A stretch of 36,293 nt of DNA from an uncultured Lachnospiraceae bacterium (GTDB lineage: Bacteria; Bacillota; Clostridia; Lachnospirales; Lachnospiraceae). The stretch lies in NCBI GenBank assembly GCA_947175175.1, contig CAMWLV010000022.1, forward strand, positions 1 through 36,293, in the 5' to 3' direction. Every line of letters begins with the position of its first letter. The stretch's first letter is position 1. Made by a program: the position numbers and the translations under genes. This document shows positions 7,387 through 25,942 of the stretch, in pieces. The notes beneath the pieces are model-generated. The model made no database searches. It saw only the letters and a program-made list of their open reading frames with translations, and was not told the DNA's origin.

Positions 7387-8181
7387 ATGAAAATCGAAAA
7401 AGTAAATGACCATCAAATTCGCTGCACGCTTACAAAGGCGGATCTGGCAGACCGTGAGCTTAAGATCAGCGAGCTTGCCTACGGCACCGAGAAAGCAAAA
7501 AACCTTTTCCGCGATATGATGCAGCAGGCCTCTTATGAATTTGGATTTGATGCTGATGATATTCCACTTATGATAGAAGCGATACCGCTCAATTCCGAGT
7601 GTATTGTCTTAGTGATTACCAAAGTTGAAGATCCCGAGGAACTCGACACACGTTTCTCAAAATTTGCCCCTTCTGTCCACGATGAATATGAGGAGGACGA
7701 TCTGGGTAGCACGCTCGACAGTATGCTTCAGAGTCTCTCTGAGGGCGCTGACGATGTGCTTGACCTGTTTAAGAAAATTCATGACAATCATCTTGCGGAG
7801 ACCGCTGCAAGTGGTTCTGATACGCTGGGCGGTGTCAGCAACCCGAGGGCAAAGTCGGCAAATACTGCAAGACAGCCTATTGGCATTGAACTGACGCGCA
7901 TTTATGGTTTTGAATCCCTGAACCAGGTAACACGCCTTGCCCATATACTGGCACAGCACTACAACGGGAAAAATTCCCTGTACAAGAACGATAAGACTTC
8001 CGGCTATCTGCTGGTTGTGACACAGTCTGACCACACACCTGAACAATTTAACAAAATTTGTAACATGCTTTCCGAGTACGGAAATCCGGAGAAGATTGCT
8101 TCTGCCAGTGAGGCATATATGGAAGAGCACTTCGAACCGATCATCAGGGATAAGGCGATCCAGGCATTGTCCCTCGTATAG
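7387..8181 (+). CDS. mecA: Adaptor protein MecA (ClpC adaptor / competence regulator)
   Basis: A 264-aa protein. The N-terminal domain (MKIEKVNDHQIRCTLTKADL, residues 1-90) is the substrate-recognition module of the MecA family. An acidic linker at about 100-150 leads to the C-terminal ClpC-binding domain (about 170-264). In Bacillus, MecA delivers ComK and other targets to the ClpCP protease and assembles the ClpC hexamer. I chose the ATG at 7387, preceded by GAGGATG, over a start at 7339, which would place the start inside a hairpin of the leader. The gene stands alone, with its own promoter and a shared terminator with the convergent DUF1858 gene. No clpC is in the window. Confidence 0.9.
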   Translation: MKIEKVNDHQIRCTLTKADLADRELKISELAYGTEKAKNLFRDMMQQASYEFGFDADDIPLMIEAIPLNSECIVLVITKVEDPEELDTRFSKFAPSVHDEYEEDDLGSTLDSMLQSLSEGADDVLDLFKKIHDNHLAETAASGSDTLGGVSNPRAKSANTARQPIGIELTRIYGFESLNQVTRLAHILAQHYNGKNSLYKNDKTSGYLLVVTQSDHTPEQFNKICNMLSEYGNPEKIASASEAYMEEHFEPIIRDKAIQALSLV

Positions 8182-8215
8182 GACAGTTGTTTTATAAATA
8201 TTTTGGAATATAGCG

Positions 8216-8249
8216 CCAAAAAATCCGCGACGTACATCGCGGACTTTTT
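8216..8249. terminator. Bidirectional terminator between mecA and the DUF1858 gene
   Basis: TCCGCGA (8224-8230) and TCGCGGA (8237-8243) form a stem with a 6-base loop, flanked by AAAAAA on the left and TTTTT on the right. It can stop transcripts from both convergent genes. Confidence 0.85.
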
Positions 8250-8282
8250 GTGTTTCCATATTTTGCTATGACATGATGACAA

Positions 8283-8477
8283 TTACGCGAGCGCTGCAAT
8301 CTTGTCCATGAGCGCGTCGATGTCCATACCATGAACCATCGCTGCTTCCTCTAAGGACTCCCCCTGTGCGGAAGGGCAGCCTAAACAGTGCATTCCTGCC
8401 TCCATGAGCACTGGCGCTACCTCCGGTTTTGTCCTCAAAATCTCACCGATTGTCATATCCTTGGTTATCTCTGCCAT
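8283..8477 (-). CDS. DUF1858 small redox-disulfide protein
   Basis: A 64-aa protein of the DUF1858 family (hybrid-cluster-protein-associated redox disulfide domain). It begins with [19 protein letters not shown] and carries the C-L-G-C pair in [14 protein letters not shown], followed by an [15 protein letters not shown] helix. Such proteins are common in strict anaerobes; the CxxC pair is thought to be redox active or to carry sulfur or metal, but no reaction is established. The start is set by AGGAGG 7 bases before the ATG. It is monocistronic and convergent with mecA. Confidence 0.85.
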
Positions 8478-8553
8478 GATGAATTCCTCCTATATCTCCT
8501 TCGTTATCCATAGCACTTTTGTATTATTATGCCTGAAATACAGTACATTATTC

Positions 8554-8582
8554 ACTATAATATATTTGGGGAATTTAATCAA
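8554..8582 (-). promoter_or_regulatory. Promoter of the DUF1858 gene
   Basis: On the minus strand, TTGATT (complement of 8577-8582), 17 bp, TATAGT (complement of 8554-8559). It lies about 77 bp upstream of the start codon. Confidence 0.55.
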
Positions 8583-8709
8583 GCCCCAAAACAGAATCGC
8601 ACAGAAGTAACATATTTTACATCTGATACAAGATTCACGACCAATTTCGCATCCTTGCGTTCCACATCCTGCAATCTCCCATACTCAATATGATAGCATT
8701 TGGTTCTTT

Positions 8710-9170
8710 CTATGATTGTCGAATGATTTCCATTATGTTAATTTTCTTAACTTTCTGTAAGGAACTGTTAAGAAATAACTTTTAAATAGTGCGCTTGATT
8801 TTTCTTCGAGAGTGCCGCTCGAAAATCAGGCGCATAGTGGGCTATGTAACTGATTTTTGAGTAATTGTTTTAACAATTTGATATCGGAGAAAAAGACAAG
8901 CAATATTAAAAGTTATTTTTGAACAGTTCCTAAGGGCATCAGTGACGATATAATTGCTGTAAACATAATGATTGCAATAATTGTAATTATCATTTCAACA
9001 GGCAATCGCCACACGGTATTAAATACTTACCAACCAGATGGATATAAATATAATAATGTAACCGTATGCCAAGTGCTATTCCCAATGCCCCACCGCCACA
9101 TGCATATATCAAAGCCTCGGTTACTACTATCTTTTTACATTGCTTTATCGTCCCACCTATAGCGCTTTTC
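8710..9170 (-). pseudogene. C-terminal remnant of an FtsX/MacB-type ABC permease, frameshifted and split by a MITE
   Basis: Only the last membrane helices of an FtsX-like permease remain. The minus strand encodes a conserved stretch around VVTEALIYACGGGALGIALG and then HYYIYIHLVGKY. One base is missing in the T-run at 9021-9023. In the next frame it continues FNTVWRLPVEMIITIIAIIM and FTAIISSLMPL. A 170-bp MITE interrupts it here. After removal of the element and one TTA copy, the frame resumes exactly as QKVKKINIMEIIRQS and a stop at 8710-8712. The 5' part is gone, replaced near 9165 by a transposase remnant. The family call is by pattern memory, but the frame restoration is directly visible. 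Confidence 0.7.
8761..8930. mobile_element. 170-bp MITE, TIR GGAACTGTT, 3-bp target duplication TAA/TTA
   Basis: The ends are imperfect inverted repeats of about 27 bp (GGAACTGTTAAGAAATAACT at the left, its near-complement at 8904-8930). They are flanked by TAA at 8758-8760 and 8931-8933. An inner hairpin pairs 8791-8810 with 8818-8833. There is no coding capacity, so it would be moved by a transposase elsewhere. It sits in the 3' end of an FtsX-type permease gene. A related end occurs at 36243 and a possible relic at 24676. Confidence 0.85.
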
Positions 9171-9491
9171 CATTTATTACTATAAGCTGCCCTGTTTTTA
9201 TCAATACAAGGTTCTTTGTCCATTCCACAAACAAATCCATAAATTTTTCTATGTCAATCCCCCTGAAAATATCCAAAAACACATCATGCGAAGGAACACC
9301 TTCCGACAATCCGAATTCCTCTGACAGTTCAGATTCCCTCTTCTTCAGGTAATAACTCATGTTTGTAAAATCACTGAAATCGGTCAGCACACTATAGGAC
9401 GCAAGGTTAAGATATCAATCAGTGGATAAATCTTTCCCCTGTTATCCCTTGGGTCTTCCAGATTTTCAAATATTTGAAAAAAGTCTTTTCA
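9157..9491 (-). pseudogene. ISAs1-family transposase remnant (N-terminal part)
   Basis: The minus strand encodes, in two frames, the N-terminal domain of an ISAs1/H-repeat transposase. From about 9488 it reads FFQIFENLEDPRDNRGKIYP then LIDILTL. A frameshift follows near 9395, then SVLTDFSDFTNMSYYLKKRE, the signature GVPSHDVF, and LIVINGKAL, where the family normally has an IDGK catalytic motif. The first catalytic Asp is therefore Asn. A stop follows at 9157-9159, and the rest, including the remaining catalytic residues, is absent. Terminal repeats are not recognisable. It is a dead fragment fused to the permease remnant. Confidence 0.7.
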
Positions 9492-9615: not shown

Positions 9616-10425
9616 TCAATTTTCCAGAAGTTTATACAACAACTTGTCGTATTTATCACCGTTCCAATCTTCTTCCATAACAAATATTATCGCATCCTTA
9701 AGTAATAACTTCGTAAAATTTGGATTATCAAACAAATACGAAAAGTTTACTACTCTTGTAACTTTATCATCTCTGGCACATAGCAACGGTATAACATCGT
9801 TATATGCCCTGACAATTCGCTTAAAGTGTTCAAGAGATGTTTCTTCTGTGATAACATACTTGTCCAACTCTTTTAAACTCTCATAACTAGCATATAATTC
9901 GTTTTGTTCCACACATTTTATATTTGGATACTCACTTACGAAACGTTTTAACAACACTAATGCTGCCTTTAAACATTTCAAGTTAAGCAAAACATATGTT
10001 GTATCTTCTGTTAAAAAAAACTTTTCTTGGGCATATATTTCTCCTTTATCAAAATCTCTTCGCATCCGATGTAAAGTAACACCTGCTTCGATATCATTTT
10101 GTAAAATCGTAAAAACAAGTGGGATCGGCCCTCGGTGACGTGGAAGCAAAGCCTGATGAAAATTATAACAGTTATATTTATCACATATCTCCTCTGGCAA
10201 ACGATAATTCCAATTATACGAAATTATACAATCGAACTGGTAATACTCCAAAAATTGGTAGTTATCACCATATTCAAATTTCTCTATGGGTGTTCCTGGC
10301 GAAGCATCAGAAATAATTTCTGGATGTTCAGAAATACATGCAACTATTTCTATTTTGGAAATTTTACATACATGCTTTATAAACGCCCCGCCAATTTTCC
10401 CATTTAATAGAAAAATTACTTTCAT
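9616..10425 (-). CDS. Stand-alone formyltransferase (methionyl-tRNA formyltransferase fold)
   Basis: A 269-aa enzyme of the formyltransferase family, which moves a formyl group from 10-formyl-tetrahydrofolate to an amine. The catalytic triad is present as N88-x-H90 in YNFHQALLPRHRG and D126 in RRDFDKGEI. The 38-residue gap from Asn to Asp equals that in Fmt (N106/D144). It is shorter than housekeeping Fmt (about 315 aa), and its C-terminal region is unlike the tRNA-binding domain. This suggests a small-molecule, sugar or peptide substrate. The ATG at 10425 follows GGGAGG and lies just after the stop of the upstream ABC gene, so it is co-transcribed. In this operon it may N-formylate the exported product; that is inference. 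Base composition is visibly AT-richer than the ABC genes. Confidence 0.8.
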   Translation of the reverse strand: MKVIFLLNGKIGGAFIKHVCKISKIEIVACISEHPEIISDASPGTPIEKFEYGDNYQFLEYYQFDCIISYNWNYRLPEEICDKYNCYNFHQALLPRHRGPIPLVFTILQNDIEAGVTLHRMRRDFDKGEIYAQEKFFLTEDTTYVLLNLKCLKAALVLLKRFVSEYPNIKCVEQNELYASYESLKELDKYVITEETSLEHFKRIVRAYNDVIPLLCARDDKVTRVVNFSYLFDNPNFTKLLLKDAIIFVMEEDWNGDKYDKLLYKLLEN

Positions 10426-10430
10426 GCAGC

Positions 10431-12173
10431 CTACGCCTCCCGATACCACTTCGCCTGTTCATTCCAAATATGGTAAAAATACCCCCGCTGCTCCATCAGC
10501 TCCTCAAAGCTTCCTGCCTCCGCGATGCTGCCATGGTCCAGCACAAGGATCTTGTCCGCACTGCGGACTGCTCCAAGCCGGTGAGTCACCAGAACTACCG
10601 TCCGATCTTGGGCAAGGTCATTTAACCTCTGATAAATGGCCATCTCTTCCAGCGGATCGATGGCCGCCGTGGGTTCATCCAGGAACAGGATGGGACGCTG
10701 TCGGTAATAGCTCCGGGCCAGCGCAACGCGCTGCCACTGCCCGCCTGATAACTCGGTCCCGCCAAATTCCCTGCCCAAAAGCTGCTCCTGCGGATGTTCG
10801 GCAAGCAGTATTCCCGCCCATTCCAGCGCATGGCTGATCTTCTTATGATCCATCTCCTTTGTTGTATCCCCTAGGTAAACGTTCTGGGCCATGGTCAGCT
10901 TATAGTGGCCAAACTCCTGATAGACGGCACTGATCTGTTCAAAAATGCTATTCTCCTTAAGCTGGCTTCGTTCCACGCCCCCCAGCTCCAGCACGCCCTC
11001 GGTGGGCAGGAGAAATCCTGATAACAGCTTTGCCAGCGTGGTCTTTCCTGCGCCGTTTTCCCCCACAATGGCGATTCTCTCCCCTTTTTGAATGGATAAG
11101 GAGATATCCTTCAGTGCATACGCTTCCCCATTGGTATATTGGTAGGATACGTGCTCCAGGCGTGCCGCTTCCCTGCCAGACTCCATTTTCTTCCTTCCAT
11201 CCGTTACTTCAAGGTCCATCAGTTCAAAGAAGGAAGCGGACATCACACTCGTCTGCAAAATCTCGCCCGCATGATTAAAAAGCTGGGTGAAGGAGCTGGT
11301 CAAAGCGGAAAAGCTGGCCAAGAGGACGGAAAAGCCGCCGATGGTAATCCGGCCTGTCACCAGCAGCCAGACCATCAGGAATACGGACAGACCGTGGAAC
11401 AGGGATTTGATCCCTGCAAAGAAGAGCCCCACACCTCCCATCTGCCGGACGTGCTTTCCTTCTCTTTCATCCACCTCCCGGCAAGCCGCCAGATACCTCT
11501 CCGCCACATAACAGCCTGCCCCATAATGGGCAAGCTCCTTTTTGCTCCCAACCGTGGAAAGAAGGCCACGGGCATAGTTTTTTCTCCGCTCTGCCTGCGC
11601 CAGATCCAGCATCAAGCGGGACTGGTAACCGGCTCCCTTTAGTTTTTCCGAAATGACTGGGACACTTACCATCACCACAAACAGGATCAGCAGTGGGTGT
11701 AGGGAGGCCAGATACCCACCTACGGAAGTCAAGTTAAAGATCAGCACCAGCGACATTACTGCAAGGTTGGCGGTGAACACCAGAAACATGGATGCCTGTT
11801 TTGCTTTCTCCACCGTCTGGTAATACTGTGCAGAGTCATAATACTCCAAGGAGATTTTCGCGCTCTTTTCATGAATCTTAGCGTCCAGCCCTAGAAAGAC
11901 ATAGCGGAAATAGCCGAATTCCATATACTGTTTTGACACCAGCTCAAACATTTTCTGGATCATGTAGGTTCCGATCAGCAGTAGAACCGGTTCCGCGTAA
12001 TAGGACAGAGAGAGTCCCAAGCCGAAACTGGCTGCCCGATCCACGATCTGACGCTGCAGATACAGGAGCACGGTGGGTAGGACAGCGCCCGGTAGAGACA
12101 GCAGCAGATAAAGGGTCATGCGTAAGGGGGAGATGGGAATTACTAACCTTAAAATTCGGATGATATTTTTCAT
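10431..12173 (-). CDS. ABC exporter, fused membrane and ATPase domains (second of pair)
   Basis: A 580-aa half-transporter. An N-terminal six-helix exporter domain covers roughly residues 10-310. The ATPase is at about 335-570, with Walker A GENGAGKTT, Q-loop QEFGHYKL, signature LSGGQWQR, Walker B ILFLDEP and H-loop THRLG, all intact. The family exports peptides, lipids or drugs. The start ATG at 12173 follows AAAGGA. It lies 26 bp after the first ABC gene, which also has intact motifs, so the two probably form a heterodimer. The sequence is visibly GC-richer than the operon's other genes, suggesting a different history. The substrate is unknown; the neighbours point to a modified small peptide. 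Confidence 0.88.
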   Translation of the reverse strand: MKNIIRILRLVIPISPLRMTLYLLLSLPGAVLPTVLLYLQRQIVDRAASFGLGLSLSYYAEPVLLLIGTYMIQKMFELVSKQYMEFGYFRYVFLGLDAKIHEKSAKISLEYYDSAQYYQTVEKAKQASMFLVFTANLAVMSLVLIFNLTSVGGYLASLHPLLILFVVMVSVPVISEKLKGAGYQSRLMLDLAQAERRKNYARGLLSTVGSKKELAHYGAGCYVAERYLAACREVDEREGKHVRQMGGVGLFFAGIKSLFHGLSVFLMVWLLVTGRITIGGFSVLLASFSALTSSFTQLFNHAGEILQTSVMSASFFELMDLEVTDGRKKMESGREAARLEHVSYQYTNGEAYALKDISLSIQKGERIAIVGENGAGKTTLAKLLSGFLLPTEGVLELGGVERSQLKENSIFEQISAVYQEFGHYKLTMAQNVYLGDTTKEMDHKKISHALEWAGILLAEHPQEQLLGREFGGTELSGGQWQRVALARSYYRQRPILFLDEPTAAIDPLEEMAIYQRLNDLAQDRTVVLVTHRLGAVRSADKILVLDHGSIAEAGSFEELMEQRGYFYHIWNEQAKWYREA

Positions 12174-12199
12174 TCTTATATTCCTTTCTGTGATATTTT

Positions 12200-13957
12200 T
12201 TATTCATACATTCCTTTCTGAGCCTCGAACATCCTGCGATATAACCCGTCCGGTTTCTTCATCAGATGCACGTGGCTTCCCTGCTCCACAAACCGACCCT
12301 TTTCCAGCACACAGATCTCATCCGCATGGACGGCAGCACCCAGCCGGTGGGTTACAAAAAGATTGACACACCCCTCCTCGCGTTTGGAAAGGAAATCTCC
12401 GTAGAGGCGGGATTCCGCCAAGGGATCCATCGCAGCAGTGGGTTCATCCCAGATACAGATTCCAGCCCTGCGGTATAGCATACGGGCGATGGACAGGCGC
12501 TGCCACTGGCCGCCGGAGAGATCCATGCCTCCCTCCTCCAGATTCCCCAGCTTTGTCTCATAAGCATCCGGACAGGATGCGATCCAGGCATCCAGCCCTG
12601 CCTCCTGGGCCGCCCGACTCATATCCTTCTTTGAATCTTCCTTTCCCATGCGGGAGATTACAATATTTTCCTTTATTGTATAATCATAACGGTTGAAATC
12701 CTGGAAAACTGCGGAAAAATAACGTTGCAGTTTTCCAAACTCCATCTCCTGTATATTTACCCCATCAATTGTAATGATGCCGCTGTCCGGCCGGTAAAAT
12801 CCCATTAGCAGCTTCACCAGGGTCGTCTTCCCGCAGCCGTTCTCCCCTGCCAATGCATAATTCTTCCCCGCATGGAAGGTAAAATCCAGTCCGTCCAGCA
12901 CCGGCTTCTCCTGGCCAGGATAATGGAACACGATCTTTTCCCCCTTAATCTCATGAAAGGGTAGGGGGGAGTTATCTGCTTCCTCCTGGACATAATACTG
13001 CTCCGGCAGGGCGTAAAGCTTTCCCAGATCCTCCCAGCACGCTCGGTACTCCTGATAGGACGGCCAGTGCTCGCTGCCCACCGCCACAAAGAACGCCCCC
13101 AGCCTTGCCAATGCCGGGATGATGGAGATATATAATCCGATTTCCATTTCTCCCCGGTACAGGGGAAGCAGGAACAGCAGGTAGGCAGACGCGGAAAACA
13201 GGAAGGTGATGTTATCATACACCCATAAGGTCATGTTGGAGACCAATATGCTGCCCAGCATCTTCCTGTTGGACCGGATGGTCTCCTCCTCATAGAGCTT
13301 CTGGATATAAGGCGTATATCCAAACAGCTTTTTCTCCTGAGCCAGGCGCCGGTCAAACAGCAAACCGGACAGGTAATCGCTCCTCCTGCCAATTTCCTGC
13401 CTGCTCTGATACATGGCCAGCCTACTCTTTGCGATCAGGCGGAATGTGATGACCATCAGAGCTAGGAGTAGCAGGATGGCCAGCAAGAAGTAGGGGGCGT
13501 TCTCCACAACCAGCGCCAGGACACCAACGGTTCCTACGATCCCTCCCAGGATCTGCACCCCGGAAAAAAAACCATTTGCATAACGGGCTTCCGGGTTGTC
13601 CTGCACCCGGGCAATGAGAGCCTGGTTCTCCATATCTTCCAGTGCCGCAACAGAGATGCGAGCTGTTTTTTCGATGATAGTCTGCTCCAAATAGATACGC
13701 AGCTGCAGGCGGATTTTATCCTTCAGATAACCAAGCAGTGGCGTCTGGATGTAATAAAAAGCGTAGACTGCAGAGATCCCGAGGGCAAAAAGGGCAGACT
13801 GCGCCCATTGGAGACTGGAAAATCCGTCAATAAAACGTTGAAGGAGCACAACCTCCGAAACATTTAGAACCGCCTGTACCATGATCAACAGGGTTGCGGC
13901 CAGCGCTGCATAAGGCTTTTTGATGATCAGTTTCCAGAATGTTTCAGTTTTCTTCAT
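12200..13957 (-). CDS. ABC exporter, fused membrane and ATPase domains (first of pair)
   Basis: A 585-aa half-transporter with an N-terminal exporter-type membrane domain (about residues 10-310) and a C-terminal ATPase. The motifs are Walker A GENGCGKTT, signature LSGGQWQR, Walker B ICIWDEP and H-loop THRLG; the conserved Leu before Asp-Glu in Walker B is Trp. I chose the ATG at 13957, 7 bases after GGGGAGG. A longer start at 13993 would overlap the preceding P-loop gene, whose stop is at 13959-13961, so coupling is tight. No N-terminal C39 peptidase domain is present, so any leader peptide must be removed by another protein. It is paired with the next gene. Confidence 0.88.
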   Translation of the reverse strand: MKKTETFWKLIIKKPYAALAATLLIMVQAVLNVSEVVLLQRFIDGFSSLQWAQSALFALGISAVYAFYYIQTPLLGYLKDKIRLQLRIYLEQTIIEKTARISVAALEDMENQALIARVQDNPEARYANGFFSGVQILGGIVGTVGVLALVVENAPYFLLAILLLLALMVITFRLIAKSRLAMYQSRQEIGRRSDYLSGLLFDRRLAQEKKLFGYTPYIQKLYEEETIRSNRKMLGSILVSNMTLWVYDNITFLFSASAYLLFLLPLYRGEMEIGLYISIIPALARLGAFFVAVGSEHWPSYQEYRACWEDLGKLYALPEQYYVQEEADNSPLPFHEIKGEKIVFHYPGQEKPVLDGLDFTFHAGKNYALAGENGCGKTTLVKLLMGFYRPDSGIITIDGVNIQEMEFGKLQRYFSAVFQDFNRYDYTIKENIVISRMGKEDSKKDMSRAAQEAGLDAWIASCPDAYETKLGNLEEGGMDLSGGQWQRLSIARMLYRRAGICIWDEPTAAMDPLAESRLYGDFLSKREEGCVNLFVTHRLGAAVHADEICVLEKGRFVEQGSHVHLMKKPDGLYRRMFEAQKGMYE

Positions 13958-13958
13958 G

Positions 13959-15204
13959 TTATTCCTCCCCGTAGTAACAAATAACCAACTCAAAAAGACG
14001 ATCTAAATCTTCTGAAGATGACAGGTCATAGCAAGGCAAGGATGTCTCTTCAGATAAACGAGTACAAATCTGTAATCTTTCACTATCTTCGATGCGTCGA
14101 AAACGTCGTAAATTACTCATACCCTCCATTTTCCGCATTTGCGGGAATAATACGAGTGCAATTACTGTTGCGTTTGTAGCGGATTCAATTAAATTCACAT
14201 TTCTCATGATATAATCTGAATTTTGATGTCCACTAACGCATAGTATAACAGTATCTGGTTGTGTTCCCAGTAGAAATTCATATTGCGACAAATTCAAATG
14301 ATCCAAATGATAACTTGCCTCTGGGGCGGTTCCGGATTGACATCCCACAATAATCACATCTGGATTTGCCATTTCCATTTGATGCATATAATTATTTAAT
14401 GTTGCAATGGCTTCATATCCATGAATGAAAACCCCTTTATTAAACCCCATAGGATAAATATGTTGAAACCCAAATAGTAACGAGTTTGGCTCTGTTCCCA
14501 ACTGTTCAATGTCATATCCTGCCTCCATAAACCGTTTTCTAAGCTCAAGCTGGAGGGTAAATTTTCCCTGGTTTGCATCTGTACCAAACACTCCTAAAAC
14601 AGGTACATTTATGTTGTAAAGTTTCCCTTTTGTTTCATAAGGGATATCTTGCTTTGTAACAGAAGGAAAAAAGAATTTTTCAGGATCGCCCTTTTTTCTC
14701 AAATAATAGGAATACATCGTATCATCAAAGGCATAAATATTTTTATGTTGCAGAATACATTTATCAATAATTTTCTCAATTTGATTATATTTAACAAGCT
14801 TTACTAATTCACTTATATGCCCCAATATTAAGGTGTCAAAATCTTCCATTTTTATTGATGATACATCTTCAATTTCACATTTATTATCCATATTATCGGT
14901 TAACTTTAACAAATATTTATTAGTGTATATATGAGTTATCTTAAACGTTAAAAGTTCACTAAAACGGACTAGAGCGTGTTTGAAAAATCATTCCTGCCAT
15001 CTGCATAACGACGCCAAAGCGTCGTATTCACCAATTTGCGTGATATCTGCACCAAATTCAGTTGACATAAGGCATTGCCCTTTATGTCTTTGCCTCCTAC
15101 GCCGCCTTCATTTGGCACAAATCTCCCACAAATTGTGACGCACATCTGACAGAAAGCATTTTTCAAACACGCTCTAGTAAAATAGGGACCATATAACGTT
15201 CCAT
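13959..15204 (-). pseudogene. DUF1611-like P-loop protein of a peptide/natural-product operon, 5' end split by a MITE
   Basis: The uninterrupted part (TTG at 14912 or ATG at 14891, no ribosome site) has a P-loop-like motif GTDANQGKFT. It also has PDVIIVGCQSGTAPEA and FLLGTQPDTVILCVSG, as in the C-terminal domain of DUF1611 proteins and the related clostridial peptide-maturation family I recall as TIGR04066 (not certain). The frame stays open upstream to the MITE edge at 14969. Beyond the element is ATG at 15204 after GGCGG, 16 bp from the preceding stop. Joining MERYMVPIL to LVRFSELLTF across one CTAG copy gives a continuous 346-codon gene. As it stands, the first nine codons are cut off, and the protein is either lost or made as an N-terminally truncated form. 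Confidence 0.75.
14969..15177. mobile_element. 209-bp MITE with perfect 20-bp inverted ends including CTAG
   Basis: CTAGAGCGTGTTTGAAAAAT (14969-14988) is the exact complement of 15158-15177. CTAG at both ends is the likely 4-bp target duplication. An internal hairpin pairs ACGACGC (15008-15014) with GCGTCGT (15019-15025). A 65-codon open frame on the minus strand runs through most of the element but has no recognisable domain and overlaps the repeats; I regard it as spurious. The element splits the P-loop gene. Confidence 0.88.
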
Positions 15205-15220
15205 CTATGATAATCCGCCA

Positions 15221-16183
15221 TTACAATAACTGAATTGCCTCGCCGTAACACGCCTTTTCTTTTATTTCCAACTTTGTCAGTATATCAATTAACCTTGTCA
15301 GTATGTCTGGTTTTTTTGTGACCGTGAACTTCAAGGCAAGCATAAATAATAGCCTGGCAATATGTTCTATTTCCTCCATTTTTTCAACGATGGGCTTAAA
15401 TTTATCCCCTTGCAGTTCATTTAATTTTTCAAAATGGAGAAGGAAAATCTTCTTATGCTCCCATATCAGTCGAAAAATCCTTAGATCAAGTGACTCATCC
15501 TCTTCTTTTCTTCCTTCAACTTTGGCTTTCGTGCATTCCTTAATGACTTTATAAGTTTGTATTCCATATGCATTGGTTTCATCAACTCCCTTCTCAAGAA
15601 AATCTTGTATCCCTTTTTTGATTTTATCAATGTTAATTGAAACATAAGATGAAGCTATTCTGAAAGTGCTAAATTTAGTATCTGGTTCATCTGTCATTTG
15701 ACAATAGAGAGCTTCCACCACTTCATTTGCATCTATTTCAAGCAGTCGCAACTTCCTTTTAGAATAAGCCATAACACAAAACTTATCATCGCGATATCCA
15801 TAAATATAAGTATCATGTATATAATGCTGGATTCCATAACTTGTCGTATAGCTTAAATAATACTCATCAATCATGTACAACAGAATATAATTGTCCTGAT
15901 CAATCCTTTCTTTTATAAATCCGACAAAACACTCTTTTGCGATATTTTTAACGTGAAAACAATTCGTCTCAGCCAAACCATCTTTTCTGAATGGTTCCCA
16001 GTCGAAATCCTCGAAATGCAAGTTGATCTGGTTCATGTAATTTGTTTTACTACACTCAATGTTGTGATAATAATTATAGAAAGCATTTTTAATATTGTCG
16101 TTCGCCAATACAATTCCCATAGTAAATGAACTGTTATGGTATGTTTCACTTGGCGGCATAATAATTGGTAATATTTTTTCCAT
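15221..16183 (-). CDS. BtrH_N-like protein of a natural-product operon (function uncertain)
   Basis: A 320-aa soluble protein. The stretch ILLYMIDEYYLSYTTSYGIQ followed by HYIHDTYIYGYRDDKF (about residues 105-140) matches the pattern I associate with BtrH_N-type proteins of Firmicute biosynthetic clusters: an aspartate-containing EYYL motif, then HD, then a GYD-like turn. BtrH is an acyltransferase-like enzyme of the butirosin pathway with a cysteine-peptidase-like fold. I see no clear active-site Cys in the N-terminal part, where the family usually has one, so catalysis is doubtful. The C-terminal half is helical and charged. The ATG at 16183 follows AAGGAGGTG; that ribosome site lies inside the upstream 35-codon ORF, so translation is probably coupled. 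The family call is tentative. Confidence 0.5.
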   Translation of the reverse strand: MEKILPIIMPPSETYHNSSFTMGIVLANDNIKNAFYNYYHNIECSKTNYMNQINLHFEDFDWEPFRKDGLAETNCFHVKNIAKECFVGFIKERIDQDNYILLYMIDEYYLSYTTSYGIQHYIHDTYIYGYRDDKFCVMAYSKRKLRLLEIDANEVVEALYCQMTDEPDTKFSTFRIASSYVSINIDKIKKGIQDFLEKGVDETNAYGIQTYKVIKECTKAKVEGRKEEDESLDLRIFRLIWEHKKIFLLHFEKLNELQGDKFKPIVEKMEEIEHIARLLFMLALKFTVTKKPDILTRLIDILTKLEIKEKACYGEAIQLL

Positions 16184-16184
16184 T

Positions 16185-16292
16185 TTATTGCACACCTCCT
16201 TTTATTCTGCAGTTGAATGTCTGATTCAAATCCAAAGCAGACAGAACACAAATACATGCAAGAAAACTGTTTTTACTCATAATATGTTTCAT
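16185..16292 (-). CDS. 35-aa Cys-containing small ORF, candidate precursor peptide
   Basis: This ORF begins at ATG 16292 (AGGGA about 5 bases upstream; an internal ATG at codon 5 is possible) and ends at TAA 16185-16187, one base before the ATG of the BtrH_N-like gene. It starts MKHIMSKNSFLACICVL, has Cys at 13, 15 and 28, and ends CRIKGGVQ. Its last codons, K-G-G-V, contain the ribosome site of the next gene, a sign that it is translated and coupled. Its position at the head of an export operon suits a precursor peptide. No known peptide family is recognised, and no radical-SAM or lanthionine enzyme is adjacent. It could instead be only a leader ORF. Confidence 0.5.
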   Translation of the reverse strand: MKHIMSKNSFLACICVLSALDLNQTFNCRIKGGVQ

Positions 16293-17081: not shown

Positions 17082-17246
17082 ATGAAAAGATCAAATTTCA
17101 AAAAAATGCTGTTAACTCTTGCACTTGTTATTATTATACAGAATAGTGTTATCGCAGCGCAAACTTTGCCGGGGAATCCTTATGCTGGGGATGAATCTGT
17201 TTCTCCTTGTAACGATAAACCCATTCATGACGAACACATTAATTGA
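17082..17246 (+). CDS. 54-aa secreted peptide, candidate signalling pro-peptide
   Basis: This small gene has a strong ribosome site (TGGAGGTG) 8 bases before ATG 17082. The product starts MKRSNFKKMLLTLALVIIIQ, a classic positively charged, hydrophobic signal peptide, with a likely cleavage after NSVIAA. The exported remainder is about 28 residues, Pro-, Asp- and His-rich, with one Cys (SPCNDKPIHDEHIN at the end). Its last 22 bases overlap the 3' end of the convergent HTH regulator. Small secreted pro-peptides next to a TPR-type HTH regulator are the hallmark of RRNPP systems (PlcR-PapR, Rgg-SHP), in which a processed C-terminal oligopeptide re-enters the cell. That role is inferred from context; a decoy or a small toxin is possible. 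Confidence 0.6.
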   Translation: MKRSNFKKMLLTLALVIIIQNSVIAAQTLPGNPYAGDESVSPCNDKPIHDEHIN

Positions 17247-19144
17247 TTGAGTTTATCAGAATAAAAACTTTCATCAAAAACCTGTCTGCAAAAATGACTG
17301 AGTGCGAGACACGCCCTTAATCCATCAGTCATTTTTTCTTTACCCAATTGCTGTCCATCACGAGCTTTCTGCTCCTTGGCATTCCACAACATGTCATAGA
17401 CAAATTCATCCGCTGCACCAAGCCTCCTGCACTTGAGCACTTCCTTCAACGCCTTTCTGCTCAACCCTGTTGCAAGCTGATACTCGCCCATATTTCCCAG
17501 TTCGCTCGCAATAAGCATAATGACAAATTCATATATGGCAATGTAATCTGCCAGCAGGTTTTCCTGCTCAAACTTCTCAAAGAAATGCAGCATAAAATCT
17601 ATCTGCTTCCTTTTTTCTGTTTCGTCAAGCCATTGTATGCTTTTCCGAATACAGACCATCTCCATCTCCGTCAGATAGAGCTCCCCAACATCACGCAGTC
17701 TCTGCAGATCCAGTGTACACTGGAGCGCCGCTTTTTCCCTTGCAGCAAATGCTTCCCCTGTGATCTTCCCTTCCATCAGGTCCAGTGACGCTTCGGCTTC
17801 CATTACATACTGCCTGTTTTCTGGTATCTCCAGACAGAGCGCTTCCTTTAACTGGTTCAGCACTTCCCTTGCCCGTCCGGTCTCACGGTTATTCCGGCAG
17901 CGCATCAGTTCCAGATTTAACTCAAGTGCTTTCCTGTCGTTTGTCACAAGATCCGTCTTCTGGATCTCCTTGGACAAGCCAAGCCTCCGCATCACCTGTC
18001 CAAGCGCTTCCCGCTGCATATTGACCAGCTTCTTCTCCGCCCTGCGCAGTGATTTTACCGAGCAGATGCCCGCACACACCTCCTGCTGCGTCATTCCATA
18101 CATGTTCCTGCGGATGCGCAGGACATCCCCGATCGAGAATACCCACCGCTGCCGGTACAGGTAAGTGCAGTCCTGCATATATTCCGGTATCCCATATTCC
18201 GCATATAGTTTCTTCAGCAGTTCTTCCATCTCCACGCTCTCCTGAAGGGCTGCTATATACTCCTCTATCCCCTGTTCATTCCCGTTTCCTGCAGGGCAGT
18301 TTATGATCTGTGTCAATATCTCCCTTTTGCACTCCAGCAGTTCCACCAGATAAAATGCCCACTGTGTATCGCGTAGCATCTCAATTGCCCGGTCACAGAC
18401 CTGCAAAGCTTTTTTCCTGCTGGTTATTGTCACTTCCCCACCGCCGGATAAAAGATCCCGCAAGTAGTAAAACGCAATCTTAGGGTATATTTTTGCTTTT
18501 GATAATGTATCATAAAGGGATTTTTCCACATATCCCATCAGATACTGGCACTTTGCGGCAAACTCTTCTGCCATGGTGCCATTTTCTTTTTTATAAAACT
18601 CATATTCCAGCACCATGTTGATTTCCACAACGGACAGCGCTTTTTCCCTCACGTAAATCTGTTCCACTTCTGGTACTGTAATGCGCACCGCCGTTTCATA
18701 ACAGCTGCCGAGTTTTGCGCAGTCTGCCCCCTGCTGTTTCAATAACTCCGCTTTTATGACATGGCAGAACTGGGACTTGATCTTATCCCCTGCCGGATCC
18801 TGTCTTTCAAAAGCCCCGATCAGTTTTTGTACCTTTTGAAATGCTTTCTGTTCAATGGCATACAGGATCTCCTGCTGCATCTCCCATATCGCATAGTCCT
18901 CCTTGTCCAGCAGGTTTTCATGCAGATCCGTCGCGACTCCCAGCCTGCCCAGCAGACGGTTCCGCAGCATTTTTCCGGCTGGTCTTTGTCCGTTCTCAAT
19001 CTTCGAAAGCAGGCTTGCTTCTACCAAACCTTCTCCCAGCACTTCGTCTGACACGCCCGATTCTTCCCGCACTCCTTTTAGAAATGCAGAAAAATCCTGA
19101 TCAGCCTGCCGGAGTTCCTTCGTCCCTTTTCTTCGCTTTCTCAT
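17225..19144 (-). CDS. Large transcriptional regulator with two XRE-type HTH domains and helical repeats (RRNPP-like)
   Basis: A 639-aa protein. An N-terminal XRE-like HTH spans about residues 17-75 (LGEGLVEASLLSKIENGQRP). A long helical region compatible with TPR repeats follows (about 85-335). A second HTH lies at about 338-392 (VLRIRRNMYGMTQQEVCAGI, then CSVKSLRRAEKK), and helical repeats continue to the end. Single HTH-TPR proteins of 280-450 aa that bind exported peptides form the RRNPP group; here the module appears doubled in one chain. ATG 19144 follows AAGGAG by 11 bases, downstream of a promoter at 19171-19200. It is convergent with a 54-aa secreted peptide gene and next to an export operon, so it may sense that peptide and control these genes. 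Peptide binding is not shown. Confidence 0.7.
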   Translation of the reverse strand: MRKRRKGTKELRQADQDFSAFLKGVREESGVSDEVLGEGLVEASLLSKIENGQRPAGKMLRNRLLGRLGVATDLHENLLDKEDYAIWEMQQEILYAIEQKAFQKVQKLIGAFERQDPAGDKIKSQFCHVIKAELLKQQGADCAKLGSCYETAVRITVPEVEQIYVREKALSVVEINMVLEYEFYKKENGTMAEEFAAKCQYLMGYVEKSLYDTLSKAKIYPKIAFYYLRDLLSGGGEVTITSRKKALQVCDRAIEMLRDTQWAFYLVELLECKREILTQIINCPAGNGNEQGIEEYIAALQESVEMEELLKKLYAEYGIPEYMQDCTYLYRQRWVFSIGDVLRIRRNMYGMTQQEVCAGICSVKSLRRAEKKLVNMQREALGQVMRRLGLSKEIQKTDLVTNDRKALELNLELMRCRNNRETGRAREVLNQLKEALCLEIPENRQYVMEAEASLDLMEGKITGEAFAAREKAALQCTLDLQRLRDVGELYLTEMEMVCIRKSIQWLDETEKRKQIDFMLHFFEKFEQENLLADYIAIYEFVIMLIASELGNMGEYQLATGLSRKALKEVLKCRRLGAADEFVYDMLWNAKEQKARDGQQLGKEKMTDGLRACLALSHFCRQVFDESFYSDKLNQLMCSS

Positions 19145-19532: not shown

Positions 19533-21572
19533 ATGAGACCAGAATGGAAAGATTTTGTAGGTGGCAAATGGGAAAGCGAGATCAATGTACGTGACTTCAT
19601 TCAGAAGAATTTCACACCATATGAAGGAGATGAGGCTTTCTTAGCAGGACCTACACAGAACACAAAGGATTTATGGGACATGGTTCTTGATCTTCAGAAG
19701 AAGGAAAGAGAAGCCGGCGGTGTACTTGACATGGACACAAAGGTTATCTCTACCATTACTTCTCATGGTCCGGGATACCTCGACAAGAGCAAGGAGACGA
19801 TCGTTGGTTTCCAGACAGATAAGCCTTTCAAGCGTTCTTTACAGCCTTATGGCGGTATCAGAATGGCAGAGAAAGCCTGCTCAGACAACGGCTACGAAGT
19901 AGATCCTGAGATCAGTGAGTTCTTCTCTACACACAGAAAAACACACAATGCAGGATGTTTCGACGCTTACAATCAGGAGATGAGAGCATGCCGTTCATCA
20001 CACATCATCACAGGTCTTCCCGATGCTTATGGACGTGGACGTATCATCGGTGACTACAGAAGAGTTGCTCTCTATGGTATCGACAGACTGATCGAGGATA
20101 AGCAGGCTCAGAAGGATTCCACAGGCCGCGTTATGACCGATGATGTGATTCGTCTTCGCGAAGAGCTTTCAGAGCAGATGGTTGCTTTGAAGCTGATGAA
20201 AGAAATGGCTGCTTCTTATGGCTGTGATATTTCTAAGCCGGCTACAAACGTACAGGAAGCAATCCAGGCTACTTATTTCGGATACTTATGTGCAGTTAAA
20301 GAGCAGAACGGTGCAGCTATGTCTCTTGGCCGTACATCTACATTCCTTGATTGCTACGCACAGAGAGACTTAAAGAACGGAACATTCACAGAGGAGCAGA
20401 TTCAGGAGTTTGTTGACCACTTCATCATGAAGCTTCGTCTGATCAAGTTTGCTCGTACTCCTGAATACAACCAGATCTTCGCAGGCGATCCTGTATGGGT
20501 AACAGAGTCACTCGGCGGTGTTGGCGTAGACGGACGTCCTCTGGTAACAAAGATGTCCTTCCGTTATCTGAACACATTGACAAACCTCGGACCCAGCCCA
20601 GAGCCGAACTTAACAGTACTTTGGTCTACAAGACTTCCTGAGAACTGGAAGAGATACTGTGCAAAGATGTCGATCCAGACTTCTTCTATCCAGTACGAGA
20701 ACGACGATCTGATGCGTGTTACACACGGTGACGATTATGGTATCGCTTGCTGCGTATCTTCTATGGTTATTGGTAAGGAAATGCAGTTCTTCGGAGCTCG
20801 TGCAAACGTTGCTAAGTGCTTACTCTACGCTTTGAATGGCGGTGTGGACGAAGTTACCAAGAAGCAGGTTGGTCCTAAGTATCGTCCTGTTGAGGGTGAC
20901 GTTCTTGACTACGATGATGTATACAGCAAATTCATGGATATGCTTGAGTGGCAGGCAGATGTGTATGTAAATACACTGAATATCATCCACTACATGCATG
21001 ACAAATACTGCTATGAGAGAGCAGAGATGGCTCTTCATGACAGAGATGTTAAGAGATACTTTGCTACAGGTGTTGCTGGTCTTTCTATTGTTGCTGACTC
21101 TTTATCAGCAATTAAGTATGCCAAGGTAAAACCGATTCGCGACGAGGACGGCATCATTGTTGACTTCGAGACAACTGGCGATTTCCCTAAGTATGGTAAT
21201 GACGATGACCGCGTTGACCTGATCGCACAGGATATCGTTCACAAGTTTATGACAGCAATCAGAAGACATCATACCTACAGAAATGGTGTTCCCACCACTT
21301 CTATCCTTACAATTACATCTAATGTAACATATGGTAAGGCTACAGGTAACACACCTGATGGACGTAAGAAGGGACAGCCGTTTGCTCCTGGTGCAAACCC
21401 AATGCATGGACGTGATACACATGGTGCAGTAGCTTCTCTGTCTTCTGTATCAAAGCTTCCGTTCAAGGATGCACAGGATGGTATCTCAAATACCTTTACA
21501 ATCATTCCGAACGCTCTTGGTAAGGAAGCTAAGGTCTTTTCTGGAGATATTGAACTTGACCTGAATAATTAG
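19533..21572 (+). CDS. pflB: Pyruvate formate-lyase catalytic core lacking the glycyl-radical domain
   Basis: A 679-aa formate C-acetyltransferase core that splits pyruvate with CoA into acetyl-CoA and formate. The catalytic Cys pair is C406-C407 in [20 protein letters not shown] (E. coli C418-C419). The protein follows the family up to [20 protein letters not shown] and stops at LDLNN. The C-terminal 70-80 residues that carry the radical Gly in ordinary 750-760-aa enzymes are absent and instead encoded as a separate 80-aa protein at 21934-22176. Activity must therefore depend on assembly of the two chains. ATG 19533 follows AGGAGG. The usual lyase motifs are otherwise intact, so it is not a decayed gene. 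The activating enzyme is encoded at 24810. Confidence 0.92.
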
Positions 21573-24763: not shown

Positions 24764-24769
24764 TATAAT
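24764..24769 (+). promoter_or_regulatory. -10 element of the pflA promoter
   Basis: TATAAT at 24764-24769 lies 40 bp before the pflA start. The hexamer 17 bp upstream (TACCTC) is a poor -35, so the promoter may need an activator. Confidence 0.45.
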
Positions 24770-24809
24770 GAGTATATCAAATCATTATGATACAGGAAAG
24801 GTTGATACT

Positions 24810-25568
24810 ATGCAAGGAAGAATTCATTCTTTAGAATCATTTGGTACAGTTGACGGTCCCGGTGTCCGTTATGTTGTCTTTGTACAGGGCTGCCCTATGA
24901 GATGCGCTTACTGCCACAACCCAGACACTTGGGAGATGAACGCCGGAACTCTGATGGAACCAGAGGAAATACTGGAAAACTATGAACGGAATAAGCCCTT
25001 TTACAAGGACGGCGGCATCACTGTGACCGGCGGTGAACCGCTGATGCAGATTGATTTTCTGCTGGAGCTCTTTACGTTGGCGCATGAGCGCGGCATCCAT
25101 ACCTGTCTGGACAGCTCCGGCATTGCTTACCGTCCGGACGGCAATCCCGAGTGGCTTGCCAAGTTAGACAAGCTCTGTGAGGTAACAGATCTTGTGATGC
25201 TTGATATCAAACATATTGATCCTGAGAAACACAAGGAACTGGTACATCAGCCAAACGATGGCATTCTTGCCTTTGCAGAATACCTCGACAGCAAGAATGT
25301 GGAAATCTGGATCCGCCATGTCGTTGTTCCTGGCATTACAGATGATCCAAATGATCTTCACAAGCTGGGTTATTTTATCGGTGGACTCAAAAACCTCAAG
25401 GCGCTTGACGTGCTCCCTTATCACACCATGGGCAAGAAAAAGTATGACGAACTCGGCATGAAATACCGCCTTGAAGGTGTTCCTGAGATGGATAAGGGCA
25501 AGGTTCCAGAGCTGAAACAATATATCTTAAACGGCATTCGCGAGCGGCGCGGTTTACCAATAAAATAG
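24810..25568 (+). CDS. pflA: Pyruvate formate-lyase activating enzyme (radical SAM)
   Basis: A 252-aa radical SAM enzyme that installs the glycyl radical on pyruvate formate-lyase, here on the detached GrcA-like subunit. The cluster ligands are C28, C32 and C35 in GCPMRCAYCHNP. The SAM-binding region ITVTGGEPLMQIDFLLELF and the family's ESFGTVDGPGVRYVVF start are present. ATG 24810 with GGAAAGG upstream is chosen over an upstream ATG at 24768 that overlaps the -10. Unlike many Firmicutes, pflA is about 2.6 kb from pflB, with minus-strand genes between, so it has its own promoter. A ferredoxin gene follows about 200 bp downstream and may supply electrons for cluster reduction, which is inference. 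Confidence 0.93.
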   Translation: MQGRIHSLESFGTVDGPGVRYVVFVQGCPMRCAYCHNPDTWEMNAGTLMEPEEILENYERNKPFYKDGGITVTGGEPLMQIDFLLELFTLAHERGIHTCLDSSGIAYRPDGNPEWLAKLDKLCEVTDLVMLDIKHIDPEKHKELVHQPNDGILAFAEYLDSKNVEIWIRHVVVPGITDDPNDLHKLGYFIGGLKNLKALDVLPYHTMGKKKYDELGMKYRLEGVPEMDKGKVPELKQYILNGIRERRGLPIK

Positions 25569-25771
25569 GCTGTGTATTTTATCAGAAACTTTACAAGATT
25601 TTATATTTTATGCCTTGTATTTCGAACAAATTTATATTAAAATATCTGTATTGACAAGTATTTATCAAACTTATTTCAAATATTTGTCATGTGGCTGTGA
25701 TTTGTAGCGATCTGACAATAATGCAGTCTGCTACAACAAATAATAGAATGATAAAAGGAGGAATTTGTACT

Positions 25772-25942
25772 ATGGCATATCAGATTTCAGATGCATGCGT
25801 TTCTTGTGGAGCTTGTGAGTCCCAGTGTCCGGTTGGCGCGATCAGCATGGGCGATGGCAAATTTGAGATTGACGCAGATAAGTGCATCGACTGCGGTTCT
25901 TGCGCAGGCGCATGCCCTACAGGCTCTATCGATCAGGCTTAA
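25772..25942 (+). CDS. 2[4Fe-4S] ferredoxin
   Basis: A 56-aa clostridial-type ferredoxin with two classic cluster motifs, CVSCGACESQCPVG (first Cys at residue 9) and CIDCGSCAGACPTG, in the usual pseudo-twofold arrangement. It carries low-potential electrons for anaerobic metabolism. ATG 25772 follows AAAGGAGG; longer starts upstream are not needed. The 203-bp gap after pflA is AT-rich and probably contains its own promoter. A bidirectional terminator follows. Supplying PflA with electrons is plausible, but a general role is at least as likely. Confidence 0.93.
   Translation: MAYQISDACVSCGACESQCPVGAISMGDGKFEIDADKCIDCGSCAGACPTGSIDQA

Follow-up and report, generated by a model that had tools for sequence, protein, structure and literature searches.

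What can a row of genes make that encodes a P-loop protein, a BtrH-like protein, two ABC half-transporters and a formyltransferase, with no maturation enzyme beside them? The row lies in a 36,293-nucleotide stretch of DNA (the window) from a draft genome of an uncultured Lachnospiraceae bacterium (249 contigs, 86.5% complete). A preliminary description took it for an uncharacterised operon that might export a formylated peptide. We consider it highly likely that the operon is instead a truncated or degraded copy of a radical-SAM RiPP cluster. The window copy probably makes no peptide, because a short mobile repeat stands in place of the radical enzyme, carrier, protease and peptide gene of its relatives.

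The gene row and its relatives

All six ORFs described earlier, five large genes among them, were found again at their positions (Table 1). The tight head-to-tail spacing holds from the DUF1611 gene to the formyltransferase gene: the ATG of ABC half A lies 1 nt past the DUF1611 stop and that of the formyltransferase 5 nt past the stop of ABC half B, each with an SD-like sequence. It fails between the BtrH-like and DUF1611 genes, where a gap of 308 nt (15220-14913) contains an interspersed repeat, which interrupts the row. All five large genes are real, yet they probably do not form a complete operon.

Table 1. Features of the locus, with positions in the window
Feature	Position	Strand	Remarks
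Formyltransferase-like protein	9616..10425	-	ATG 10425; rare accessory; PF00551 (Formyl_trans_N) 4.4e-12
ABC exporter half B	10431..12173	-	33% identity to L182 exporter
ABC exporter half A	12200..13957	-	ATG 13957; 32% identity to L158 exporter
DUF1611/TIGR04066-like P-loop domain	13959..14912	-	apparent 3' part of a fused subtilase-DUF1611 gene, its N-terminal subtilase missing
Linker remnant, subtilase to DUF1611, in frame	14913..14967	-	between repeat and DUF1611 TTG start; from alignment to fused relatives
MITE-like interspersed repeat	14968..15178	.	211 bp; 32-bp terminal inverted repeats, 28/32 identical
BtrH-like protein	15221..16183	-	listed ORF from GTG 16195; ATG 16183 with AAAGGAGGTG upstream
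35-codon ORF, proposed precursor	16185..16292	-	no match to precursor model, no relative
Signal-peptide-like ORF, 54 aa	17082..17246	+	tail to tail with regulator, 22-nt overlap; candidate pheromone propeptide
Tandem-duplicated HTH receptor-like regulator, 639 aa	17225..19144	-	HTH_31 2.7e-7

A first scan of contig proteins with a single window protein as query gave seven pattern matches and no relative. A scan for the DUF1611 sub-family gave 101 relatives, of which the best 80, representing 79 distinct loci, were kept. Among these 79 loci (best 80 of 101 relatives), 75 encode a subtilase (S8) and the TIGR04066-like P-loop domain as one fusion protein, a count that describes this sub-family rather than DUF1611 generally because the queries came mostly from fused proteins. 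The same 79 have a radical SAM/SPASM enzyme in 50 cases, a carrier protein in 53, a BtrH-like protein in 48, at least one ABC exporter in 68 and at least two in 51; related loci also have short Cys-containing precursors. No radical SAM match was found within the examined DNA of the other 29, of which 16 belong to Latescibacterota/Gemmatimonadota and several others stop at contig ends. Of 82 mapped loci, 14 have the order radical SAM, carrier, S8/DUF1611, ABC, ABC on one strand, and in four of the 14 (L079, L127 of Anaerocolumna sp. AGMB13025, L164 and L182) BtrH lies upstream of the block; L145, read by hand, has the same order. The window retains BtrH, DUF1611 and the ABC pair in the order of its relatives, minus the middle block.

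The preliminary description was right to see a locus for a peptide natural product here and to relate it to TIGR04066 clusters, with a DUF1611 P-loop protein, a BtrH-like protein and an exporter pair. The published CLI_3235-type clusters, which are sactipeptide- or ranthipeptide-like, combine a TIGR04068 radical SAM enzyme (CcpM), TIGR04066, a TIGR04069 carrier, a subtilase and ABC genes; examples are SacP23 of Paenibacillus polymyxa (in the part of PMC10731318 used here) and a Roseburia cluster (PMC4573289). The relatives of the window resemble these in their radical SAM/SPASM enzyme, TIGR04066-like and carrier-like proteins, subtilase, ABC exporter and short Cys-rich precursor. They differ in joining subtilase and TIGR04066-like domain in one protein, whereas canonical TIGR04066-type matches have the domain alone in frames of 326-415 aa, and in that they usually have two ABC half-transporters and commonly a BtrH-like protein; most of these parts are missing from the window copy. 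None of the scanned representatives (subtilase fusion, radical SAM, BtrH, carrier) reached a curated NCBIfam cut-off, and six representative precursors had no NCBIfam match. Our best reading is that the relatives define a radical-SAM RiPP sub-class that no NCBIfam equivalog matches. The window shares with this sub-class a pair of ABC half-transporters next to DUF1611; both halves match ABC_tran (E about 5e-30) and, by pattern, have intact Walker and signature motifs.

The BtrH-like protein is 36.5% identical to that of L080/L125 (323 columns), and its match to the BtrH_N family is weak (E 0.004, 17.8 bits against a cut-off of 29.7). Its AlphaFold model (mean pLDDT 95.1) matches CcbD, CtaG and AziU3/U2 in Foldseek (first 19 matches E 2.9e-8 to 7.9e-5, TMq 0.48-0.70), and the protein is thus predicted to have the papain-like, carrier-dependent transferase fold. 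As with BtrH, CcbD, CtaG and AziU3, which have carrier-protein partners, a carrier gene is near in most relatives of the window cluster. The His at window residue 127 is shared by 39 of 44 family members, but the column of the candidate catalytic Cys, placed by sequence alignment rather than structural superposition, holds Cys in 13 of the 44 and His in the window. On plasmids, one distant BtrH-like protein (24%) adjoining NRPS genes and no DUF1611 was found; on two unannotated phage contigs, DUF1611 matches of about 32% cover 40-43% of the query.

A probable cut fusion gene and a repeat

The window DUF1611 protein (PF07755, E 1.6e-13) is 39-41% identical to fused relatives. It matches TIGR04066 from model position 62 (E 1.7e-28) at 99.6 bits, below the curated cut-off of 200; the fused relative L080 scores 99.5 bits. 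The fusion is not intact in the window, where only the linker and the DUF1611 part are left. The remnant codons upstream of the DUF1611 start match the conserved fusion linker (HMM E=2.6e-7 against 3 for the runner-up among 1531 six-frame fragments), which supports descent of the window gene from a subtilase fusion. The L145 fused protein was modelled with a mean pLDDT of 76.9 (7 sequences). The repeat that abuts the remnant recurs, in partial or diverged form, at nine places elsewhere in the genome, all on other contigs. A 65-aa ORF within it (14969-15166) was rejected as a gene, being a DUF6783-type spurious sequence (8.1e-09).

The absence of an adjacent radical SAM gene or protease, noted earlier, is true of the window and does not extend to its relatives; the DUF1611 gene bears the scar of truncation at the place where they would be expected. 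No radical SAM/SPASM maturase lies between 9.6 and 19.1 kb. The sole radical SAM match in the window is PflA (24768-25568; TIGR02493 1.4e-88), and tblastn candidates at 24.8-25.1 kb (best 1.9e-7) were rejected as this gene. Likewise, a carrier candidate at 25.8 kb (7.4e-4) is a ferredoxin-like ORF (25691-25942), the best match below 1e-3, and no carrier-like protein was found in the window. The homology, the linker remnant, the repeat and the absences within the window are observations at the sequence level.

In the intact class, a radical SAM/SPASM enzyme would modify the precursor, assisted by the carrier protein and the BtrH-like protein with its ACP-dependent transferase fold; the leader would be cut by the subtilase half of the fusion with the TIGR04066-like P-loop domain, and the pair of ABC half-transporters would export the product. 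The window copy probably lost its radical SAM enzyme, carrier, precursor and subtilase, with the fused gene cut at the MITE-like repeat, and kept BtrH, the P-loop domain, both exporter halves and the accessory formyltransferase. This may have happened in a single deletion event, and the order of events suggested here is likewise a reconstruction. Against degradation, none of the five remaining genes has a broken reading frame, and the decay would then be recent or the remainder kept by selection; the 29 relatives with no radical SAM match weigh in the same direction. Similar truncations occur in L161 (Blautia hansenii), where DUF1611 lies beside a sulfatase-like fragment, and in G143, which has one in-frame TAA.

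The short ORF, the formyltransferase and other readings

The 35-codon ORF had been singled out as the best precursor candidate, and in this role we reject it; it is probably not a gene. Precursors of the relatives are 24-60 aa long with the pattern MKKxLxKP...VxLYxxE...C. A loose regular expression for them gave 65 rows in 49 loci, noise included; a script reduced these to 31 peptides from 28 loci, and a precursor HMM was built from them. The 35-codon ORF does not match this model, and the best window ORF (E 0.63) does not indicate a short Cys-rich precursor anywhere in the window; a looser pattern had no match in ten radical SAM loci. A tblastn comparison with 228 loci gave no relative of the ORF in the corresponding position (best E 0.97), and the ORF ends in the AAAGGAGGTG that belongs to the ribosome site of BtrH. 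Its three Cys are unexceptional, as 52 of 230 window ORFs of 30-60 aa on both strands have three or more. The preliminary description would have been refuted by homologous operons without any conserved small ORF, and the outcome is mixed: a small-ORF family is conserved, but the 35-codon ORF does not belong to it and the window yielded no member.

The N-H-D triad of the formyltransferase is indeed present as NxH...D residues (by pattern), and the protein scores below the cut-off for methionyl-tRNA formyltransferase (Fmt; TIGR00460 69.5 bits against 201.5). In L145 a related formyltransferase (37% over 145 aa) immediately precedes the fused gene, and the two enzymes appear closest to each other in a sequence comparison that included one of the genome's four further formyltransferase places. 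However, this is the single case among the 79 related loci (best 80 of 101 relatives), so the formylated-peptide claim draws little weight from it, and no other genome among 392 of the order has the enzyme at E 1e-22. With the short ORF unconserved, unlike the relatives' precursors and overlapping a ribosome site, a new operon yielding a formylated exported peptide is very improbable.

The open frames would also suit an immunity or export module in which the ABC pair, the P-loop domain and BtrH were retained as protection against neighbours' peptide, or to pump it out, after the producing genes were lost. DUF1611 and ABC genes without subtilase occur in L161 (two ABC) and G143 (ABC and BtrH) as well, and an immunity role has been guessed for a TIGR04066 protein (PMC10731318). 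That guess is based on annotation only, as far as the part of the paper used here goes, and the G143 copy carries its in-frame TAA; we regard such a module as unlikely. In a draft genome, the missing genes could also be located outside the window, or the assembly could be wrong at the join, with a full cluster in the true genome and the repeat exactly at the junction. The sole near-full-length repeat copy elsewhere is only 76% identical and should not confuse an assembler, and both flanks come from the same kind of cluster with order kept, which makes an error rather improbable. Slightly less credible still is a working minimal variant, in which the P-loop protein, lacking its subtilase, would cooperate with a precursor and a maturase from other places in the genome. 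The genome has six other radical SAM places, one of them (C50) beside a 41-aa Cys-rich ORF, but no S8-DUF1611, carrier or BtrH neighbour was found at the five considered (all but C212), the draft genome has no second S8-DUF1611 match, no precursor-family ORF was found in the window, and the linker remnant and repeat indicate a cut gene.

The neighbouring regulator and peptide ORF

Upstream of the probably degraded cluster, the 639-aa HTH protein is a possible regulator of it. The N and C halves of 13 regulator homologs align with each other (hhalign E 9.4e-33). The window protein matches HTH only, and among eight homologs scanned, RNPP_C was above cut-off in one (L203, 1.4e-7) and TPR matches were below cut-off in five. 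A secreted-peptide ORF lies tail to tail with 15 of 18 long regulator homologs and with 6 of 747 control genes; the signal-peptide test was tightened after an earlier result and then applied equally to regulators and controls. The regulator stands directly upstream of S8-DUF1611 RiPP clusters in the window, L116, L143 and L157, and near other radical SAM genes in 3 of 15 further regulator loci.

An HTH protein adjoining a short ORF with a signal-peptide-like start recalls the RRNPP/Rgg-SHP quorum-sensing pairs, as presented in the parts of PMC10075063 and PMC9765709 used here. Compared with those accounts, the window-type receptor has roughly double the length (596-657 aa in complete copies) and two homologous halves, and its peptide ORF is convergent, abutting or overlapping the receptor 3' end. 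A published receptor detector was restricted to 250-500 aa, according to the same part of PMC10075063. We are evenly divided on whether the cluster is wired to an undescribed RRNPP-like quorum-sensing system, missed by published length filters, in which a receptor of two fused HTH-TPR-like units directly upstream of S8-DUF1611 clusters would pair with a candidate propeptide gene on the opposite strand, tail to tail with it and overlapping or abutting its 3' end. The receptor/peptide-ORF pair is more novel than the probably degraded RiPP cluster.

A puzzling operon thus becomes the readable scar of a RiPP cluster, and a caution against mining such remnants for precursors. Its sub-class spans Lachnospirales, Paenibacillaceae, Treponema and other groups and is little described, with a recognisable precursor family of which the six peptides tested have no NCBIfam match. 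The receptor-peptide pair offers a testable handle on when such clusters switch on.

The probably truncated DUF1611 gene

All genes from the BtrH-like gene through the formyltransferase gene have open frames. The preliminary description placed them in one tight head-to-tail row. This holds from DUF1611 to the formyltransferase, where DUF1611, both ABC genes and the formyltransferase gene are closely spaced, with Shine-Dalgarno-like sequences, but the BtrH-like gene is set off by 308 nt that contain a repeat. The repeat includes a 65-aa ORF of DUF6783 type, and other contigs of this draft genome (249 contigs, 4.1 Mb, 86.5% complete) carry a 205-base stretch 76% identical to it, plus several shorter stretches.

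Upstream of its TTG start, the DUF1611 frame remains open into the repeat, as far as position 14987. An in-frame alignment matches the 18 codons between the repeat and the start to the linker (PFNKEMHSLxRFxxLLxFxIxxIYDxKY) found in proteins of relatives in which a subtilase (Peptidase_S8) is fused to the TIGR04066-like P-loop domain. A linker HMM from 78 fusions, with the window sequence left out although its columns were picked on an alignment that included it, matched this stretch at E=2.6e-7; the next best of 1531 six-frame fragments had an E value of 3. The TIGR04066 match starts at model position 62 in the window protein and at position 3 in the fused protein of locus L080. Given the in-frame linker remnant and the late start of this match, the gene was most likely cut at this place.

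Radical SAM, carrier, fusion and two ABC genes lie in that order on one strand in 14 of 82 mapped loci, with BtrH upstream in 4 of those. In fusion locus L145, read by hand, the succession is BtrH, radical SAM, transposase-like pieces, radical SAM, carrier, precursor, solute-binding protein, formyltransferase, fusion, ABC and ABC. The window gene order fits that of L145 and other relatives minus the middle block. In the simplest reading, this block would have been lost in one deletion whose site the repeat marks; neither the gap nor the stretch upstream of BtrH yielded any remnant of it (no match below E 0.4). Other shortened copies occur. The DUF1611 frame lacks the subtilase in L161 (Blautia hansenii), where the preceding fragment is presumably sulfatase-like, and in genome match G143, which has an in-frame TAA; locus L147 is missing most of the subtilase and retains the linker.

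Features of the window and of two other sequences
Feature	Sequence	Position	Strand	Description
Gap repeat	window			211 bp; 32-bp inverted ends, 28/32 identical
DDE_Tnp_1-associated fragment	window	9157-9390	-	2.1e-8; transposase remnant adjoining the locus, downstream of formyltransferase
Peptide ORF	window	17082-17246	+	
Regulator	window	17225-19144	-	639 aa
Pyruvate formate-lyase ORF	window	19533-21572	+	TIGR01255, 1094.7 bits; ends at model position 665/744
Glycyl-radical-like stretch	window	about 21.9-22.2 kb	+	RVSGYA; after an ATG, downstream of the pyruvate formate-lyase ORF and in another frame; may reflect a split enzyme or a frameshift
Radical SAM gene, then 41-aa Cys-rich ORF	L104 (contig C50, window genome)	7539-8953		separate RiPP-like cluster
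BtrH-like protein	L020 (Paenibacillus sp. 37 plasmid pART37)	11992-12987		24% identical to the window's; beside two NRPS genes

Relatives with the subtilase fusion

At 1e-12, the DUF1611 protein has matches in 8 of 344 genomes of the order, the window genome included. In five of these besides the window genome, the match (E 1e-68 to 1e-45) lies inside frames of 593-632 aa, which are subtilase-DUF1611 fusions (Peptidase_S8 2.1e-10 in locus L079), surrounded by radical SAM/SPASM enzymes, carrier proteins, ABC pairs, BtrH-like proteins and, once, YcaO. The subtilase D, H and S, which we take to be the catalytic triad of S8 proteases, are unchanged in all seven aligned fusions.

An alignment of the fused-type domain was searched against one genome per species, and the best 80 of 101 relatives gave 79 loci. 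Counts among these are lower bounds because many loci end at contig ends: the S8 fusion is present in 75, radical SAM in at least 50, a carrier in at least 53, a BtrH-like protein in at least 48, one or more ABC genes in at least 68 (two or more in at least 51), YcaO in 2 and a formyltransferase in 1. The 16 Latescibacterota and Gemmatimonadota loci had no radical SAM match; 9 had a carrier match and 4 a BtrH match. L176, L184, L170, L180 and other loci of these phyla combine the fusion with a carrier and a BtrH-like protein. The carrier/BtrH part is perhaps the older core of this class.

Acyl transfer, formylation and precursor

The window BtrH-like protein has a confidently predicted fold (pLDDT 95.1), and its 19 best Foldseek matches are AziU2-U3, CcbD and CtaG. 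Acyl transfer from carrier proteins is established for these named relatives, and by analogy we infer the same role here. Titles of structure entries list mutated residues C19 of CcbD and C11, H128 and D144 of CtaG. His 127 of the window protein is conserved in 39 of 44 family members; the aligned N-terminal column holds His in the window and Cys in 13 of 44.

The formyltransferase is not Fmt (69.5 bits against a cut-off of 201.5), and among 392 genomes of the order none but the window genome reaches 1e-22. Its sole relative in the 79 loci belongs to the fusion operon of L145 (37% over 145 aa, 117 bits). A few clusters may possess it as a true tailoring gene; that the product is formylated is speculation.

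Small ORFs beside radical SAM and carrier genes in relatives share the pattern MKKxLxKP...VxLYxxE...C. A model of 31 such peptides from 28 loci found no match in the window (best E 0.63), and six precursor peptides tested had no NCBIfam match. The upstream 35-codon ORF, earlier favored as the precursor, scored 0 bits against this model, and no relative of it was found in 228 loci (best tblastn E 0.97); we abandon that assignment.

The regulator and its convergent candidate peptide ORF

Homologs of the HTH receptor-like regulator occur in 25 of 392 genomes of the order (window genome included), and directly upstream of the S8-DUF1611 loci L116 (cut by the locus start), L143 and L157. A radical SAM match was found in 3 of 15 regulator neighbourhoods (L229, L232, L237). 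In 13 long homologs, the N half is homologous to the C half (hhalign E 9.4e-33, 254 columns), and one homolog exceeds the RNPP_C cut-off.

Signal-peptide-like ORFs of 43-73 aa that converge on the gene, with their ends at -25 to +55 nt relative to its stop, accompany 15 of 18 long homologs (including the window, the near-identical L200/L201, and L222 from the window's genome), 5 of 15 shorter homologs and 6 of 747 control genes; the six control cases include two pairs in which one contig was counted twice. Peptides of L116, L143, L198 and L206 end with an I/W-R-P-L-like motif. The loci concerned, besides the window, are L116, L143, L157, L197-L207, L222 and L224.

In the covered portions of the freely accessible, non-preprint literature, TIGR04066 itself is present in two papers, and DUF1611 joined with BtrH or a formyltransferase was not found; nor was a subtilase-DUF1611 fusion or a double-length RRNPP receptor in the parts searched, including those of PMC10075063, PMC9765709 and PMC12700828. 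The tandem-duplicated regulator with its 3'-abutting secreted-peptide ORF resembles a quorum-sensing class of RRNPP type whose receptors have double length.
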